The position numbers and the translations under genes were made by a program. 64,000 nucleotides of DNA. Source: Allostella vacuolata. Lineage in GTDB: Bacteria; Pseudomonadota; Alphaproteobacteria; ATCC43930; Allostellaceae. Shown piece by piece: positions 12,749 through 41,849 of the stretch. The stretch lies in the NCBI GenBank assembly GCA_006739055.1, contig AP019702.1, positions 2,691,388 to 2,755,387 on the forward strand. The letters are read 5' to 3'. Position 1 is the first letter of the stretch. Each line of letters begins with the position of its first letter. The notes under the pieces are model-generated. The model did no database searches and was not told the origin of the DNA. It was given only the letters and a program-made list of their open reading frames with translations.

Positions 12749-15217
12749 TCAGACGATGGCGAAGTCGTCGGCCGAGAGCTGGTTCTTGAAGATGCCGGCC
12801 AGCACGATGCCCTGGCCGTCGCCCAGGTCGAGGAAGACGCCGTCCGGCCCGTCGACCAGCCGCGCCAGGATGTCGGCGAAGTCGGCGAGGGCGATGCCGT
12901 TCAGCAGCCCGTCCGGCCCGACGGCGAGTTCGATGACGTCACCGCCCTGGAGGTCGTAGTCGGTGACGCGGTCGAGGCCGCCCGCCTCGCCATAGGCGAA
13001 GCGGTCGGCACCCGGGCCGCCGGTCAGCGTGTCGTTGCCGAGGTCGCCCGACAGCCGGTCGTCGCCCTGGTCGCCGAACAGCTGGTCGTCGCCCTGGCCG
13101 CCCCAGACCTGGTCGTTGCCCTTGCCGCCATAGGCGAGGTCGTCGCCCAGGTCGCCCAGCACCCAGTCGGCACCGTCGCCGCCCAGCACCGTGTCGTTGC
13201 CCTGGCCGCCCCAGACCACGTCCTCGTCGGCCCCGCCGGACACCAGATCATCGCCGGCATTGCCGTTCAGCCGGTCGCGGCCGCCGCCGCCCTCGATCGT
13301 GTCGTCGCCGTCCATGCCGAAGACGGTGTCCGCCCCGCCGGTCCCCCAGAAGCCCTCGCTCCCGGGGCCGCCAGTGACCGGGTAGTACGGCGGCGGCCGG
13401 AATTCGCCCGTCACGGTGAGCGCCACGTTGCCCGTGTCGGTGCCGCCTCGCCCGTCGGATATGGCGTAGACGAAGCTGTCGCTGCCCACGAAGGAGGGGT
13501 TCGGATGATAGCTGAAGCCACCCTCGGCGTTCCAGACGAGCACGCCGAAGTCGGGCAGGTCGGCAATTCCGGTGATGGTCAGCGGATCGCCGTTGGGGTC
13601 GCTGTCGTTCCCGAGCAGGCCGGGCTGGCCGATCGTGAGAAGCGTGTTGCGCTCGGTCGTGTAGGCGTCGTCCACGGCTTCCGGCGGAAGCTGGCCCAGC
13701 AATGGCGGCGGCGGCGGCGGAACAACCGGAGGGATGCCGTACAGCACATAGCTCTGACCGGCGAAATCGCGGGCGTAAGGGGCGCCGATGATCAGGTCCC
13801 GGCCGCCATCATGGTTGATGTCGCCGACCGAGCTGACGGCCGAGCCGCTGGCGTCGCCGGTCGCAACGCCGGTGATGACGAAGCCGTTGTCGCCGTCGAT
13901 GTCGGACAGGTCGATCGCAGCGGCGAACGGGCCGTACTTCCCGAACACGACGTAGCTCTGACCGGCGACGCCGTCCGTCCACGAACCGACGATCAGGTCG
14001 TCGATGCCGTCGCCGTTCACGTCGCCCGCATCGCTGACCTGGAAGCTGGCGACGGAGTCGTTGGAATCCGTGCGCAGGACGAAGCCGTCGCTGCCGTCGA
14101 GCTCGGACAGTTCGACCGGGCTGTAGGAGAGGCCCGTCCTTCCGAAGACCACATAGGCGGCGCCATCGCCGGCGCGCACGACATTGAAAGCGGTGGTGCC
14201 GATGATGACGTCGTCGACGCCGTCGCCGTTGACGTCGCCCGCATTGCTGACCGAGTAGCCGCTGGCGTCCTTCGAGACGGCGCCGCGGATGACGAAGCCC
14301 TCGTTGCCGGGGCCGTCGCTGCCGATCGTCGACAGGGCGATGGACCCGGCGGACCAGTCCGACCGCCCGAACACGACGTAGCTGGCGCCGGTATCGACCC
14401 GCGGGCCAGTATCGAAGGCGCCGGGCATGCCGACGATGATGTCGTCGACGCCGTCACCGTTGACGTCGCCGGCGGCGCTGACCGAGAAACCCGCGAGGTC
14501 GAGGGTCGTCCCGCCGGTAAGGACGAAGCCGTCGAGGCCGCCGCCGGCGGCCAGCCCGGACAGCTCGAACGTCTGCGGGAACCCGCCGTCCGATTGCCCG
14601 AACACCACATAGGCGGCGCCATGGAAAGAGTCCGCCAGCGGTGCGCCGATGATGACGTCGTCGACGCCGTCGCCGTTGACGTCGCCCGCATTGCTGACGG
14701 AGAAGCCGGCTCCGGCGCATAGGCCGTTCCCGTTCAGGACGAAGCCGTCGACGCCGCCGCCGCCCGGCAGGGCGGACAGGTCAAAGTCCGCGAACGGCCC
14801 GGTGTGGCCGAACATGACGAAGGCTGCACCGGAGTCGGTCAGGTTGGGGTCGTCGCCGGGCGCCCCGATGATCAGGTCGTCGATCTGGTCATCGTTCACG
14901 TCGCCGGCGGCACTGACCGAGAAGCCGCTGCCGTCGCCTCCGGAGATGCCGTGAATGGCGAAGCCGTCGCTGGCGCTGAGCTCGGAGAGTTCGATCGGGT
15001 GGGCAAGCCCGCCGATGCGGCCGAACACCACATAGGTGATACCGGCTTCCGACGTGGCACCCGGTGCCCCGATCAGCAGATCGTCGATGCCGTCGCCGTT
15101 GATGTCGCCCGCATTGCTGACCGAATAGCCGCTGTTGCTGCTGGTCCCCGTCCCGTTGAGGGCGAAGCCGTTGCCTCCGTCCAGGGACGAGAGCGGAAAA
15201 GGTGACTCGAACGCCAT
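12749..15217 (-). CDS. Seven-bladed FG-GAP propeller / cadherin-like / RTX secreted protein
   Basis: An 822-residue secreted protein. Residues ~1-500 contain exactly seven FG-GAP units, each with a Ca-binding core of the type AGDVNGDGIDDLIIGA, which predicts an integrin-like seven-bladed beta-propeller. A Pro tract follows, then a cadherin-like/VCBS domain (DDAYTTERNTLLTI to GGTDTGNVALTV). About a dozen RTX nonapeptides follow (GGQGNDTVLGGDGAD and similar). The conserved tail ends in NQLSADDFAIV, a type I secretion-like signal. There is no Sec signal. The ATG at 15217 has GGGGGG four bases upstream; the longer in-frame extension lacks a site. It is paralogous to the genes at 18030-20609 and 20911-23549. 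The role is probably a Ca-stabilised surface adhesin or matrix protein (inference). Confidence 0.85.
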   Translation of the reverse strand: MAFESPFPLSSLDGGNGFALNGTGTSSNSGYSVSNAGDINGDGIDDLLIGAPGATSEAGITYVVFGRIGGLAHPIELSELSASDGFAIHGISGGDGSGFSVSAAGDVNDDQIDDLIIGAPGDDPNLTDSGAAFVMFGHTGPFADFDLSALPGGGGVDGFVLNGNGLCAGAGFSVSNAGDVNGDGVDDVIIGAPLADSFHGAAYVVFGQSDGGFPQTFELSGLAAGGGLDGFVLTGGTTLDLAGFSVSAAGDVNGDGVDDIIVGMPGAFDTGPRVDTGASYVVFGRSDWSAGSIALSTIGSDGPGNEGFVIRGAVSKDASGYSVSNAGDVNGDGVDDVIIGTTAFNVVRAGDGAAYVVFGRTGLSYSPVELSELDGSDGFVLRTDSNDSVASFQVSDAGDVNGDGIDDLIVGSWTDGVAGQSYVVFGKYGPFAAAIDLSDIDGDNGFVITGVATGDASGSAVSSVGDINHDGGRDLIIGAPYARDFAGQSYVLYGIPPVVPPPPPPLLGQLPPEAVDDAYTTERNTLLTIGQPGLLGNDSDPNGDPLTITGIADLPDFGVLVWNAEGGFSYHPNPSFVGSDSFVYAISDGRGGTDTGNVALTVTGEFRPPPYYPVTGGPGSEGFWGTGGADTVFGMDGDDTIEGGGGRDRLNGNAGDDLVSGGADEDVVWGGQGNDTVLGGDGADWVLGDLGDDLAYGGKGNDQVWGGQGDDQLFGDQGDDRLSGDLGNDTLTGGPGADRFAYGEAGGLDRVTDYDLQGGDVIELAVGPDGLLNGIALADFADILARLVDGPDGVFLDLGDGQGIVLAGIFKNQLSADDFAIV

Positions 15218-15402
15218 GAAACCCCCCGATCGGCAAGAGCTGGATGGATCTGCCAAGACGCCAGATCGTCCTGCCCTTGCACGCAAGTATCAGTCGCAAA
15301 GGTAGCGCGGGCCGGGCCGTCCGGATACCGGAATTGGCGGGTGCATGCCCGCCATCTGCGAAGATCCCGCCGTCTGGCCTCGACTACCGGGGAGCGGCTG
15401 CC

Positions 15403-37068: not shown

Positions 37069-37722
37069 TCAACAGGTTATTGAGATCGATTCGCATTCTC
37101 CGGCGACCCGGAAGATGGCCGTCAGGTTGTTGGCCGGCATCGGCCGGACGGCGGCGAGGTGGAAGCCGTGCCGGCGCGCCAGCGGTTCGACCTGCTGGTC
37201 CAGGCAGCGGATTCCCCAGGCCGGGTCGCGTGCCTGCAGGCTGGCGTCGAACTCGGCATTGGACGTGGCGGTGTGCCGGCCGTCGCGGCGGAACGGCCCA
37301 TAGAGGACGAGCGGCGCGCCGTCGCCCGCCAGGACCCGCGCCGCCCCGGCGAAGAGCCCCTCGGCCGCCGACCAGGGCGCGATGTGGATCATGTTGCAGC
37401 ACAGGATCGCATCGGCCCGCGCGACGGGCCATCGATCGGCCGAGGCATCGAGCCGGAGGGCCGGGCGGATCCGCTCGCAGCCGCTGGCCCGGGCATGGGC
37501 GTCGATATCGGCCAGCGCCTCCGCCGAGCCGTCCGTCGGCTGCCAGGAGATGCCGCCGCCGAGCCGCGGCGCCATGTAGGCGGCATGCTCGCCGGTGCCG
37601 CTCGCCACTTCGAGCAGCAGCCCCGTCTCCGGCAGGACGGCCGCCAGGACTTCGAGGATGGCCTCGCGGTTGCGCGCGGTTGCCGGGGCGTGGCGCGGCG
37701 CCATGGGCGTTCCCTGAGACAT
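37069..37722 (-). CDS. DUF938 family SAM-dependent methyltransferase
   Basis: A 217-residue class I methyltransferase-fold protein of the DUF938 family. Motif I is LLEVASGTGEHAAYMAPRL; other family stretches are WQPTDGSAEALADIDAHA, LCCNMIHIAPWSAAEGLFAGAARVL and VLYGPFRRDGRHTATSNAEFD. The C-terminus has an extra segment ending SISITC. The start at 37722 (MSQGTPMAP) has only a weak site; 37704 is an alternative. It is divergent from the peptide cassette across ~180 bp, so it might share a promoter region with it, but DUF938 genes are common and the link is not established. Substrate unknown. Confidence 0.8.
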   Translation of the reverse strand: MSQGTPMAPRHAPATARNREAILEVLAAVLPETGLLLEVASGTGEHAAYMAPRLGGGISWQPTDGSAEALADIDAHARASGCERIRPALRLDASADRWPVARADAILCCNMIHIAPWSAAEGLFAGAARVLAGDGAPLVLYGPFRRDGRHTATSNAEFDASLQARDPAWGIRCLDQQVEPLARRHGFHLAAVRPMPANNLTAIFRVAGECESISITC

Positions 37723-37857: not shown

Positions 37858-37899
37858 CGGCGCCTCGCGGGCATCCAGTCGGACGGAGGAGTTTTGCGA

Positions 37900-38034
37900 A
37901 TGACCAAGGAAATGATCCAGGCTCTGCGGGTTGCCCTGACGAAAGAAGCGCTGGCAGGGTTCGATGTCGCCGCATCGGGCGCATTGCCCGCAGCGGCAAA
38001 GGTCGGAAAGGTGCGCATGGGGAAGCCCGGCTGA
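37900..38034 (+). CDS. Putative 44-residue precursor peptide
   Basis: A 44-codon gene with an ideal ribosome-binding site (GGAGGAG, 37885-37891, spacer 8). It starts MTKEMIQALRVALTKEALAG, an amphipathic helix suited to be a leader peptide, continues through an Asp-Val-Ala-Ala and Gly-Ala-Leu-Pro hinge, and ends in the basic segment KVGKVRMGKPG. There is no signal peptide and no Cys, and the only acidic residues are Glu4, Glu16 and Asp22. It is followed after 11 nt by the HExxH protein gene and then the ATP-grasp gene. Size, composition and context fit a RiPP precursor whose C-terminal part is modified. I know no close relative; the assignment rests on context. Confidence 0.6.
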   Translation: MTKEMIQALRVALTKEALAGFDVAASGALPAAAKVGKVRMGKPG

Positions 38035-38045
38035 GTCTGCGCGCC

Positions 38046-39062
38046 GTGCCGCCGGCATTGCTCCAGCCGGATTCCAGCCTGGCTTTTCGGCCGAGCGCCG
38101 AACGCGGCACGGCGCTCGACGCCCAGATCCGGGATGCCTTCGGCGACAGCGTCCGGCGCGTGCTGGAGACGCTGGCCGCCCAGGACCTGATAGACGTCCA
38201 GGTCGTCCCGCATGTGGCCGATGGCGTGCGGCGGCACGGTCCGCCCGGCGCCATCGCCGCCTATGCCAGCTTGGTCGATGCCATCTTCGCCGAGCGTGGG
38301 GGGGAGGCGTTGGACAACGCCCAGGCGCTGGTGCAAGCCGCACTGTCGCCGGTCGCCTCGACGCCGCGGTGCGTGACCCTGCGCGACGAGCTTCTGGGGG
38401 CGGGGCAGGCCGCGCGCTACCAGCGCCTGTTCGACGACGACGAGGACGGACCGCTCGCCATCGAGCCGCTGGCGGATCGCGACCTCGAGCGTGCGGCGCG
38501 CCTGACCGTCGAGGCCCTGGCCCTTCTCGACGCGGGTGCGCCCGAGCTGGGCGGGGAGATTCGGGCCCTGCTGCGCGAGATCATCTTCGCCCGTAGTGGC
38601 TCGGCCAGGCCGGCCGAGCGCTTCAACGGGGCGTCGGTGTTTCTTGCCTGGGGCGCCGTCCTGCTCAACGTCGACGAGATGCCGGATCGCCTGACCATGG
38701 CGGAGACGCTGGCCCATGAAACCGGGCACAACCTGCTGTCCGGCTTCACCGGCGGCAGGCCGCTCGTGGAGAACGATCCGGCCGAGCGCTACGATTCGCC
38801 GCTGCGCCTCGATCCGCGGCCCATGGACGGGATCGTCCACGCGACGTATGTCCTGGCCCGCATGCACTATTGCCTCGAGCGCCTGTTGCAGTCCGGCCTC
38901 CTCTCCGACCAGGAGGGCGTGACGGCCACGGCCGCCATCGCCCAGCGTCGCCGCGCCTTTGGTGCCGGCCTGGATGTCGTCGATCGCCACGCACGCTTCA
39001 CGCCGATCGGCCGCGCGGCGTTCGAGCCGGCCCGCCAGTACATGGCCGACGTCCGGGCGTGA
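38046..39062 (+). CDS. HExxH-motif putative peptide-modification protein
   Basis: A 338-residue protein with HETGHNLL (His224, Glu225, His228) and the downstream segment SPLRLDPRPMDGIVHATYVLARM (~251-273; His265 a possible third metal ligand). This pairing is the hallmark of the HExxH domain family found in RiPP and other natural-product loci and thought to modify peptides. No signal peptide is present, so it is cytoplasmic, unlike secreted proteases. The start is GTG 38046, 11 nt after the precursor stop; no ATG is available in frame, so translation is probably coupled. The ATP-grasp gene follows after 7 nt. The reaction (protease or oxygenase type) cannot be decided from sequence. Confidence 0.8.
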   Translation: MPPALLQPDSSLAFRPSAERGTALDAQIRDAFGDSVRRVLETLAAQDLIDVQVVPHVADGVRRHGPPGAIAAYASLVDAIFAERGGEALDNAQALVQAALSPVASTPRCVTLRDELLGAGQAARYQRLFDDDEDGPLAIEPLADRDLERAARLTVEALALLDAGAPELGGEIRALLREIIFARSGSARPAERFNGASVFLAWGAVLLNVDEMPDRLTMAETLAHETGHNLLSGFTGGRPLVENDPAERYDSPLRLDPRPMDGIVHATYVLARMHYCLERLLQSGLLSDQEGVTATAAIAQRRRAFGAGLDVVDRHARFTPIGRAAFEPARQYMADVRA

Positions 39063-39069
39063 GCCGGCG

Positions 39070-40944
39070 GTGAGCCGGGGCGCCGTGCCCGCGGAGGCTT
39101 CGACAGCAGGGCCGGTGCGGCTGGGCGACAACGGCTTCCTGCCCGGCCTGAACCGGCTCGCCGCGGGTTCGGTGGCGGTCGCCGCCGTGCGCGGGCGCTT
39201 CGAGCCCGGACAATGGGCCGCGGTGATCGCCCATTGCCGCACGGTCGGCCCGGCTGGCCTTGCACCGGTGCCGCCGGAGCCGCGCCCGGCCGGGCTGCGG
39301 GACGCCGTGGAATCCCTGGCTCGCCACGTCTGCGCCTTCATGGAGGTGCCGCTCGGCCAGTTGCGGCGCACGCCGCTCGGCGAGGCGAGCGGCGGAACGG
39401 CCCTGTTGCCGACCGGCCTGGCCGGTCCGGGGGAAACGGCGCTGGTCCTGGCGATCGACCTGATCGCCCAGGCGGTCAGCGGGCCGACGCGGGAGGCCGA
39501 CGTGCAGCCGATGCGCGAGCGCCTCCTGCAGGCGCGGAAGGCCACCTATGACCGGATTCGTGGCGCGCGCCGCCATCTCATCCGGGTCGCCATCGCCCGC
39601 GGCATTCCCTGGCGGTTCTCGGAATCCGCGGGGGATCTCCTGCTCCTGGGCGAGGGCCGGCGCGCGGTGCGGTTCTTCGCATCGGCGTCCGAGCGGACCG
39701 ACGAGGCGGCGGAGCTGCTGGCCGGCAACAAGCACGTCGGCAATGCCGTATTGCGCCGAGCCGGTGTGCCGGTGGCGAGGCAGCAGCCGGTGCGCACGCC
39801 GGCCGATATCCGTCGCCTGGCGGCCGAGGTGGGCTATCCCGTGGTGATCAAGCCGATCAGCCTGCGCCTCCAGCTGGGGGTGGAGTTCGTCTTCGCCGAG
39901 GACCAGGTCGAGCGGGCCCTGGCCCGCAGCGCGAGCCACGGGCAGCCGCTCGTCGCCGAAAGCTACCTGCCTGGCCCGGAGCATCGGCTGCTGGTGGTCG
40001 ACGGCGAGGTGATCGGGTCGTACGAGCGGCCGGCGCCGCAGGTTACGGGCGACGGTGTCCGCTCGATCGCCGAACTGGCCGCGGCGGTCAGCGCCGAGCC
40101 CGATCGCGGCGACCGCAAGGCCGGCTTCCCGCTGGCGCGGATGGTGCTGGACGAGGTCGCCGTCGCCTTCCTGAAGAGCCGCGGCTGGACCCTCGACAGC
40201 ATTCCGCCGCCCGGAGTCGTGGTCGAAACCCACCCGCTGCCGTTCATCGCCTATGGCGGCGGCCGCCGGATCGACCGCAGCGCCGGCATCCATCCGGACA
40301 ACCGCGCGCTGGCGGTCCGCGCGCTGGCGGTGCTCGGGCTCGACATCGGCGGCGTCGACCTGCGCTGCCCGGACATCGGGCAATCCTGGCGCAAGGTCGG
40401 GGCCGGGATCTGCGAGGTCAATCCGCGCCCCGACATCGGCGCCCACTACCTGCCCGGCCTGGATCACGACGTGGCGGCGGAGTTCGTCGATCGGCGCGGC
40501 CCGGCCGACGGGGACGGACGAATGCCGCAGGTCGTGCTGCTGGGCGAGGGCGATCTCGATGGGCGGGCCAATGCGGCCGGACGGGCGCTCGCCCGGCAGT
40601 TCGGCTGGAAGGTCGGCGTCGCGACGCCCGGCCGGGTCGATATCGACGGCTATGTACCGCAGGTCGATGCGCCCTCGCCGGCCGATGCCTACGGGATGTT
40701 CGCCGAGAGCCCGTTCCTGGACGCGGCCGTCTATGCCACGTCTCCGGCCGGGCTGGCGGCAGGCGGGCTGGGGGCCGGCCATGTCGAACTGGTGCTGGCC
40801 AGTCCTGGTCCGGCGCGGGTATGGAAGGTGGCACTGGACCTGCTGAAGGCCGGCGGCGCGCGCGTCCTGCCCCTGCCGAGGACCGACGGCGCGGTGGCGG
40901 CGGCCGTCGTGCAGGCCATGCAGCGCTTTGCCAACCGGCGCTGA
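39070..40944 (+). CDS. Cyanophycin synthetase-like ATP-grasp protein with degenerate Mur-ligase tail
   Basis: A 624-residue protein aligned in order with cyanophycin synthetase CphA1, but shorter (CphA1 is ~870). Residues ~1-210 resemble its N-domain. Residues ~215-475 are the ATP-grasp core: GNKHVGNAVLRRAGVPVARQ, YPVVIKP, RLLVVDGEVIGSYERP and CEVNPRPDIGAHYLP (Glu449, Asn451). The glycine-rich nucleotide loop after KP, DGNxGRGV in CphA1, reads SLRLQLGV (264-271). The final ~135 residues resemble the start of the Mur ligase domain, but the P-loop is lost (LGEGDLDGRA at 491-500). Start is GTG 39070. By context it may ligate an amino acid to, or crosslink, the small peptide; activity is uncertain. 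Confidence 0.78.
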   Translation: MSRGAVPAEASTAGPVRLGDNGFLPGLNRLAAGSVAVAAVRGRFEPGQWAAVIAHCRTVGPAGLAPVPPEPRPAGLRDAVESLARHVCAFMEVPLGQLRRTPLGEASGGTALLPTGLAGPGETALVLAIDLIAQAVSGPTREADVQPMRERLLQARKATYDRIRGARRHLIRVAIARGIPWRFSESAGDLLLLGEGRRAVRFFASASERTDEAAELLAGNKHVGNAVLRRAGVPVARQQPVRTPADIRRLAAEVGYPVVIKPISLRLQLGVEFVFAEDQVERALARSASHGQPLVAESYLPGPEHRLLVVDGEVIGSYERPAPQVTGDGVRSIAELAAAVSAEPDRGDRKAGFPLARMVLDEVAVAFLKSRGWTLDSIPPPGVVVETHPLPFIAYGGGRRIDRSAGIHPDNRALAVRALAVLGLDIGGVDLRCPDIGQSWRKVGAGICEVNPRPDIGAHYLPGLDHDVAAEFVDRRGPADGDGRMPQVVLLGEGDLDGRANAAGRALARQFGWKVGVATPGRVDIDGYVPQVDAPSPADAYGMFAESPFLDAAVYATSPAGLAAGGLGAGHVELVLASPGPARVWKVALDLLKAGGARVLPLPRTDGAVAAAVVQAMQRFANRR

Positions 40945-40979
40945 ACGAACACGAACCCCGGACCGGAGTCCCGATCGCC

Positions 40980-41849
40980 ATGCCCCACCATCCCCCCGGC
41001 TTTGCCGCCGACCCGGTGCCCGCGGTGCGCGAATCCGAGGCCACCGGAGAGGTGGCCGCCATCTTCGCCGAGATCCGCGCCGTCCAGGGCCTGCCGATCG
41101 TCAATCTCGTGTGGCGGCACCTGGCCACCATGCCGGACGCCCTGGCCTGGACCTGGACGGCGCTGCTGCCGCTCTATCGCTCGGGCGCGGTCGCCGGCGC
41201 CATCCCCGGCCTGCAGGCTGGAATGGCATTGCCCGAGGTGCCGCGCTGGCCCGCCGCAGCGTTCCGAGCCGTCGGCATCGACGCGACCGAGGAGCCGCGG
41301 ATCGCCGCCGTCCTCGACAGCTACGACCGCGGCAACACCATGAACCTGCTGGCCTTCCACACCCTGCTCGCGCGGCTGGACGGGCACGAGGCGACCCCGG
41401 CGACGGCATCCGCGACCGGTAGCGTCATGGCGATCGGCGGCCAGCTGCCGCCGCTGCTCGACCTGGGCGGCATGGCTCCGGCCACGGCCGAGCTGGTGCT
41501 GGCCCTCAACCGCCTGGGGCAGGGCGGCGGCGACGGGCCGATCCTGGCCAGCCTCTACCGCCATCTCGCCCACTGGCCGGCCTACATGGCGCTGGCCTGG
41601 ACCCTGCTGCAGCCGATCGAGCGCCGCGGCGAGCTGGCGGTGGCGATCGCCTCGACCAGGGCGGCGGCGGCGGCGCAGGCGCGATCGCTGCTCGCCGGGC
41701 TCGACGGGACGATCGCCCGGCCGTCGCCGGCGGCCGAGGCGTTCGTCCGCGCCGGGCTCGGCCTCTTCGTCGGCCACGGCATCGCCCGCATGACGACCAT
41801 CGGCCGGCTGCTCCTGGCCGCCGGCCCGGCTGCCGATCAGGGGTGCTGA
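40980..41849 (+). CDS. DehI-family (2-haloacid dehalogenase-like) protein
   Basis: A 289-residue helical protein with the two tandem homologous halves typical of DehI (group I D,L-2-haloacid dehalogenases). The N-terminal mark is VRESEATGEVAAIFAEIRAVQGLPIVNLVWRHLA; LVLALNRLGQGGGDGPILASLYRHLAHWPAYMALAW begins the second half. GGAG lies upstream of ATG 40980. It is 35 nt behind the ATP-grasp gene on the same strand, so it may belong to the peptide cassette transcript. It overlaps the converging binding-protein gene by 13 nt. Dehalogenase activity is not assured; many distant relatives have no known substrate. Confidence 0.75.
   Translation: MPHHPPGFAADPVPAVRESEATGEVAAIFAEIRAVQGLPIVNLVWRHLATMPDALAWTWTALLPLYRSGAVAGAIPGLQAGMALPEVPRWPAAAFRAVGIDATEEPRIAAVLDSYDRGNTMNLLAFHTLLARLDGHEATPATASATGSVMAIGGQLPPLLDLGGMAPATAELVLALNRLGQGGGDGPILASLYRHLAHWPAYMALAWTLLQPIERRGELAVAIASTRAAAAAQARSLLAGLDGTIARPSPAAEAFVRAGLGLFVGHGIARMTTIGRLLLAAGPAADQGC

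Follow-up and report, generated by a model that had tools for sequence, protein, structure and literature searches.

A candidate modified-peptide cassette of Allostella vacuolata combining a predicted peptide hydroxylase with an ATP-grasp ligase

What does a star-shaped bacterium make with a 44-residue peptide, a protein carrying an HExxH motif and an enzyme resembling cyanophycin synthetase, all encoded one directly behind the other? The question is raised by a locus at positions 37900–41849 of a 64,000-nucleotide stretch of the Allostella vacuolata genome (assembly GCA_006739055.1, contig AP019702.1), here called the window. An original prediction made from this DNA alone had proposed a small modified-peptide cassette, and the comparisons below support it: in related genomes the peptide is kept beside the enzymes, and in 73 of 84 loci an ATP-grasp gene neighbours the HExxH gene. 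The trio of peptide, HExxH protein and ATP-grasp is thus very probably a cassette of the RiPP type (ribosomally synthesised and post-translationally modified peptide). As to what the enzymes do, the balance tips somewhat toward a reading in which the HExxH protein would hydroxylate the peptide and the CphA2-like ATP-grasp would acylate its lysine side chains with a small carboxylic or amino acid.

The peptide and its relatives

The precursor peptide frame (37900–38034, plus strand; MTKEMIQALRVALTKEALAGFDVAASGALPAAAKVGKVRMGKPG) begins with an ATG, eight nucleotides downstream of a GGAGGAG ribosome-binding site (37885–37891, plus strand); an alternative in-frame TTG start at 37894 would give a peptide of 46 residues. 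It is followed on the same strand by the HExxH gene (38046–39062, GTG start, 338 residues), the ATP-grasp gene (39070–40944, 624 residues from the GTG at 39070) and a DehI-like gene, with gaps of 11, 7 and 35 nucleotides in that order. These positions, the ribosome-binding site and the gaps had all been given before and were reproduced here.

Is the peptide real? A frame this short in GC-rich DNA could be a chance frame before two metabolic enzymes, and a profile of the common, LDxxKLLGF-type peptides barely detects it (E 17). A profile from which the window peptide was held out, made of ten peptides with a second type of leader, places it first among the 470 small open reading frames of the window (E 1.1e-5) and also finds it among the 12,110 small frames of all loci (E 2.9e-4); selection of the ten by eye at homologous positions introduces a mild bias. 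Two further Stella genomes have homologous peptides at the corresponding position: two small frames precede the HExxH gene in Stella humosa and a single one in Stella sp. ATCC 35155, and all three combine KxGK units with a leader of LxGF or VGF form. A chance frame is therefore rejected on the two held-out matches and, with the good ribosome-binding site besides, is extremely improbable. By its sequence the window peptide is one of the second leader type. Its leader motif LAGF (residues 18–21, 37951–37962, plus strand) aligns with LLGF in relatives, and its core motif KVGK-VRMGK (residues 34–42, 37999–38025, plus strand) falls in the region of KxG(x)K repeats, as alignment and pattern counts agree.

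To see how far the arrangement extends, GTDB genomes were scanned with the HExxH subfamily alone, which gave 110 relatives. Eighty of these were taken, and together with five HExxH genes of Stella genomes, less one locus (L045) present twice, they make up the 84 loci; in high-GC loci gene prediction was seeded, and for L091 the HExxH coordinates were set by hand. Peptides, called by patterns and profiles, number 85 in 73 of the loci, and 84 of them lie upstream of the HExxH gene on its strand, at a median gap of 127 nucleotides. A strict pattern matched 57 of the 12,110 small frames, 56 of which are upstream of an HExxH gene. (The calls include L116, a doubtful member counted through the pattern; frames in L053, L079 and L081 that look similar by eye were left out, and a match at 2178649 in genome G001 and other weak matches within long frames were excluded as precursors.) What the peptides have in common is the LxGF leader and lysines mostly at every fourth residue (KxGxK). 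The family is thus made of small, conserved peptides that share a leader and lie beside modifying enzymes, as RiPP precursors do, and the original prediction, which would have fallen had the frame been missing from related genomes, survives on this point.

A database search with the common-type profile returned 1023 proteins at E <= 0.01; the 120 matches listed were all without a Pfam domain, and no Pfam or NCBIfam model matched the precursor examples scanned. The idea of an orphan cassette peculiar to this genome is rejected, relatives having been found in Stella humosa, in Allostella and in the GTDB scan. Since similar trios occur in distantly related bacteria, the peptides probably belong to a family of ribosomal products that has so far drawn little attention.

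Some members depart from the usual layout. In Histidinibacterium lentulum six consecutive precursor-like frames precede a single HExxH gene (L113:6752-7986), and in Bosea (L081:6691-7672) precursors of the second leader type have acidic cores without KxG repeats, so that the scaffold may serve for different cores as well. A peptide with an LDxSRLLGF leader (L048:7738-7989) has a tail that by eye resembles a PEP-CTERM sorting signal. Two solitary precursor-like frames, G000:C1:2583433-2583588 (L130, L140) and G002:C1:2036596-2036703 (L131, L141), share an LVGF leader, a single AKVGK and a tail rich in proline; the genes predicted in the surrounding 16 kb include no HExxH, CphA-like or small ATP-grasp gene, and the peptides are possible substrates in trans.

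The predicted hydroxylase

What kind of enzyme is the HExxH protein? HExxH is the classic zincin motif, and the protein could on that account be a metallopeptidase, one that cuts the peptide or takes off its leader and leaves modification to the ligase alone. However, TIGR04267, the aKG-HExxH-type peptide beta-hydroxylase model of NCBIfam, is matched at 107.3 bits against a cut-off of 40. ChlH (PDB 8s5f) is matched at 2.6e-6 by the single sequence and at 6.8e-12 by a profile of 24 relatives, the alignment running through the HExxH, SPxRxDxRP and GxxHA segments. The motif itself is HETGH (residues 224–228, 38715–38729, plus strand), followed by SPLRLDPRPMDGIVH, and H224, E225, H228, R254, R258 and H265 are invariant across the 24 aligned relatives. 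Characterised members of the family named in PMC13060819 hydroxylate His, Asp, Phe, Gln or Pro; an HExxH enzyme, PflC, also cuts the backbone, by an oxidative route (PMC12636437). Taken together, this leaves a metallopeptidase improbable, and family membership makes it fairly likely that the window protein hydroxylates the peptide.

Two types of ATP-grasp ligase

The ATP-grasp of the window was originally taken to be of CphA1 type. Its best NCBIfam matches are indeed two cyanophycin synthetase models (230.2 and 211.1 bits, over approximately residues 120–570), both far below the CphA1 cut-offs of 877 and 850, and it matches the cyanophycin synthetase 7lgn in the PDB at 8.5e-59. A structure model (predicted local distance difference test, 90.3) has its best E-value with CphA1 7wae (4.2e-42), and the highest target-normalised template modelling (TM) score in the list belongs to CphA2 7ta5 (TM 0.73 / 0.78, 20% identity). 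The enzyme consists of an N-like domain, an ATP-grasp domain and a shortened remnant of a Mur-like domain, in agreement with the build of CphA2, in which N and ATP-grasp domains are joined to a truncated M domain.

An alignment of 31 rows, read with the residue roles and TeCphA1 numbering given in PMC9427784, separates what is kept from what is lost. The ATP and magnesium residues K221, K261, R306, R320, D430, E449 and N451 (in TeCphA1 K220, K261, R309, R323, D431, E450 and N452) are present in all 31 rows. All 13 cyanophycin-synthetase-like rows also keep H267, N394, R458 and the Mur P-loop. Of the other 18 rows, one is the window enzyme, six are relatives from the database, few of them with their neighbourhood read, and 11 are other CphA-like sequences, the CphA-like locus sequences being aligned in part; among these 18, H267 is kept in none, R458 in none (one row is gapped there), N394 in one and the Mur P-loop pattern in none. 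The window enzyme has L267, F392 and G457 at the three sites, and neither the Cx19HxxEH pattern of the N domain nor the Mur-ligase P-loop is found in it. Since the aligned CphA-like partners keep the ATP and magnesium residues and have lost the aspartate pocket and the Mur P-loop, a true cyanophycin synthetase is rejected. Without a Mur-ligase P-loop the window enzyme is CphA2-like in build, and the assignment to CphA1 type fails, since it lacks the Mur P-loop as well as the P-loop histidine and the residues that bind aspartate.

Is such an enzyme the regular partner of the HExxH protein? The 73 loci with an ATP-grasp hold either a small enzyme of RimK/LysX fold (about 320 residues; 57 loci) or a CphA-like one (16 loci), and none holds both. 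The CphA-like ligase is therefore not the usual partner, a different type standing in at most loci; the association of ATP-grasp with the HExxH gene, whose absence had been named as a possible refutation, is upheld. On a tree of the HExxH proteins (83 rows) the CphA-like label changes five times, at least four of the changes being forced by well supported branches. No Pfam family was found for two examples of the small ligase. Its profile matches D-Ala-D-Ala ligases (5.6e-5), and the first Foldseek matches of its model (predicted local distance difference test, 92.7) are LysX, ArgX and RimK, which act on proteins.

A difference in ligase is also seen within the genus. In draft genome G003, the contig with the HExxH gene (C423) overlaps contig C128 by 127 identical nucleotides, and C128 encodes a small ATP-grasp together with two peptides of the second type that contain KxGxxK. 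C128 also has a methyltransferase-like gene with 68% identity to the homologue that flanks the cassette in the window (frame 37072–37704), though in a different orientation. Next to a flanking gene of the same kind, ligase and lysine register thus differ together within one genus. (Two of the counted loci, L043 and L046, are this one locus; after merging there are 83 distinct loci, 58 with a small ligase, 16 with a CphA-like one, none with both and nine with neither, and 74 have a peptide.) In G380, one of the three genomes in which an alphaproteobacterial survey found both genes, the HExxH gene is flanked by two small ligases, and in an order-level survey of 43 genomes the HExxH gene was found in four, all of one genus.

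ATP-grasp genes of both types also occur elsewhere. The four Stella genomes have 2, 7, 4 and 8 CphA-like matches at E <= 1e-70; several of these paralogues (among L022, L026, L027, L030, L031 and others) stand in line with transporter-looking genes, and a pattern search near Stella ATP-grasp paralogues (e.g., G000:C1:4775190, L022) found no KxGK peptides. About 20 kb beyond the window there is a small RimK/LysX-fold ATP-grasp (G000:C1:2775625-2776503, minus strand; L156), with no HExxH gene, CphA-like gene or called peptide in the 16 kb read. In L083 a 640-residue protein of the small ATP-grasp cluster (13114–15033) is directly followed by a second-type precursor (15101–15271), the pair lying at least 4 kb from the HExxH gene.

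The DehI-like gene (40980–41849, plus strand, ATG start, 289 residues) was present as predicted, but does not recur as part of the cassette. It falls short of the PF10778 cut-off (17.6 bits against 28.9) and matches PDB 5gzx at 9.7e-9. As a neighbour it was seen in three loci only, all Stella; it is rejected as a core part and is probably a genus-specific neighbour.

Lysine repeats, mechanism and related systems

Where on the peptide would the ligase act? The tail KVGKVRMGKPG had been singled out as the business end of the peptide, and the recurrence of KxG(x)K as common core motif upholds this. The next lysine follows at a spacing of four residues 199 times, compared with 39.9 in shuffled sequences, and at a spacing of five 42 times (34.0 in shuffles). 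KxGK occurs in 7 of the 15 CphA-like loci with a peptide, in none of 51 small-ligase loci and in none of seven without a ligase (Fisher 8.3e-6, uncorrected for kinship); on the tree the seven fall into the Stella group, the L063/L078/L114 group and L065. That KxGK goes only with CphA-like ligases hints that the ligase acts at those lysines. The repeat regions are 18.5% lysine and 4.8% aspartate plus glutamate, and the last residue of the peptides is of 17 kinds among 85, alanine being found in 22. From lysine-rich, acid-poor repeats and a variable end we infer that the target is the lysine amines, not acids or the C-terminus; that the ligase acts on core lysines is, on these sequence grounds, a possibility to which we give slightly less than even weight.

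The course of events could then be as follows. The LxGF leader would guide both enzymes to the peptide. The HExxH enzyme, with iron and alpha-ketoglutarate, would place a hydroxyl group on a beta carbon within the repeats or close to them, and the ATP-grasp, to judge from conservation, would form amides on the lysine epsilon amines, adding a small carboxylic or amino acid. The ATP-grasp partner would be exchangeable, either a CphA2-like or a RimK/LysX-like enzyme serving the lysines of KxG(x)K.

Two other uses of the ligase have to be weighed. RimK extends S6, and the G domain of CphA extends cyanophycin. The ligase could likewise extend the C-terminus of the peptide with amino acids, the lysine repeats being the substrate of the hydroxylase. 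The nearest folds, CphA1 and CphA2 for the window enzyme and LysX, ArgX and RimK for the small ligase, agree with this, as does the activation of a C-terminal carboxylate by CphA1 described in PMC9427784; moreover PflC, also an HExxH enzyme, acts along a string of Gln (PMC12636437). However, the last residue is not conserved, and the lysine register shifts with the ligase type, in G003 as elsewhere, which makes C-terminal extension unlikely. The second alternative is a graspetide-like one, in which the ATP-grasp makes lactams between Lys and Asp or Glu within the peptide, to be hydroxylated afterwards as in corallotide, where a graspetide synthetase works with a 2-oxoglutarate (2OG) oxygenase that hydroxylates the Lys isopeptide in repeats (PMC13097080). 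PruB and PsnB are among the fold matches, yet rank below LysX/RimK and CphA. Aspartate or glutamate is found in 80 of 85 post-leader regions; the repeat regions, on the other hand, have none in 29 of 83, lysine outnumbers the acids in 75 of 83, and neither peptide alignment has a conserved acid position. Lactams of this kind are accordingly quite doubtful.

The reading of hydroxylation plus lysine acylation has its own difficulties. In LysX, RimK and CphA it is the carboxylate of the protein or polymer that is activated, a free amino acid being attached to it; an amide on lysine would reverse that direction. At least one acid is present in those 80 whole post-leader regions. A lysine spacing of three, that of KxGK, is not enriched over all peptides (27 observed, 47.8 in shuffles); 8 of the 15 CphA-like loci with a peptide do without KxGK, and the association of the motif with the ligase ignores kinship. 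No ATP-grasp was found in 11 of the 84 loci, and no peptide was called in 11 (four, L043, L046, L076 and L093, hold less than 150 nucleotides 5' of the HExxH gene; short upstream sequence does not explain the other seven, L028, L052, L053, L054, L068, L079 and L081). In the four Stella genomes, 17 of the 21 CphA-like matches are not directly after an HExxH gene, and four are. Finally, 385 alphaproteobacterial genomes have the HExxH subfamily in seven and the small ligase in five, shared by only three, a survey in which five candidates were scored per genome, so that absences are soft.

A more speculative idea, which we put forward tentatively, is that these systems form a new class of RiPP, found in Pseudomonadota, Verrucomicrobiota and other phyla. 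The KxG(x)K repeat peptide would be hydroxylated, and exchangeable ligases, CphA2-like or RimK/LysX-like, would extend its lysines one by one. The product would be an analogue of cyanophycin that is templated by the ribosome and branched through isopeptide bonds, and the lysine register would be tuned to the ligase. Open-access full text, which leaves subscription papers mostly uncovered, yielded no paper linking this peptide family with HExxH and ATP-grasp. Both aKG-HExxH enzymes and ATP-grasps attract much interest in research on peptide natural products, and their reactions cannot yet be predicted (PMC13060819). Here a minimal cassette of three genes recurs with either of two interchangeable ligases, so that co-expression can directly test where the ligase acts and which acid it uses. 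Should the lysine reading hold, it would provide a template-directed route to branched, lysine-acylated peptides, and would explain why small CphA-like genes annotated as cyanophycin synthetase or D-Ala-D-Ala ligase-like are found outside cyanophycin metabolism.

How does the cassette compare with known systems? With the aKG-HExxH RiPP hydroxylases (ChlH, PflC/PosC, PesO and BpmH) it shares the TIGR04267 domain and a gene adjoining the precursor peptide and, with ChlH, three alignable segments; in the published clusters of PMC12636437, PMC13060819 and PMC12257519, however, the enzyme is paired with a radical S-adenosylmethionine enzyme or a multinuclear non-heme iron-dependent oxidative enzyme, whereas here its partners are an ATP-grasp and a KxG(x)K peptide. 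CphA1 and CphA2 have the same N plus ATP-grasp architecture and ATP and magnesium residues, but the window enzyme has no equivalents of H267, N394 and R458, no Mur P-loop and no Cx19HxxEH, and it adjoins a peptide gene. RimK, LysX and ArgX share the fold of the small ligase, at 15–18% identity in the fold matches and with other gene partners. PGM1, also an ATP-grasp, attaches an acid resembling an amino acid to a ribosomal peptide, but does so at the N-terminus. This pheganomycin ligase is named in PMC8939145 and PMC7794033. Corallotide and the graspetides, as portrayed in PMC13097080, likewise combine a ribosomal peptide, an ATP-grasp, a 2OG-dependent oxygenase and lysine-containing repeats; corallotide has a different oxygenase, however, while the window family has few acids in its repeats and ligases nearer to CphA or LysX/RimK.

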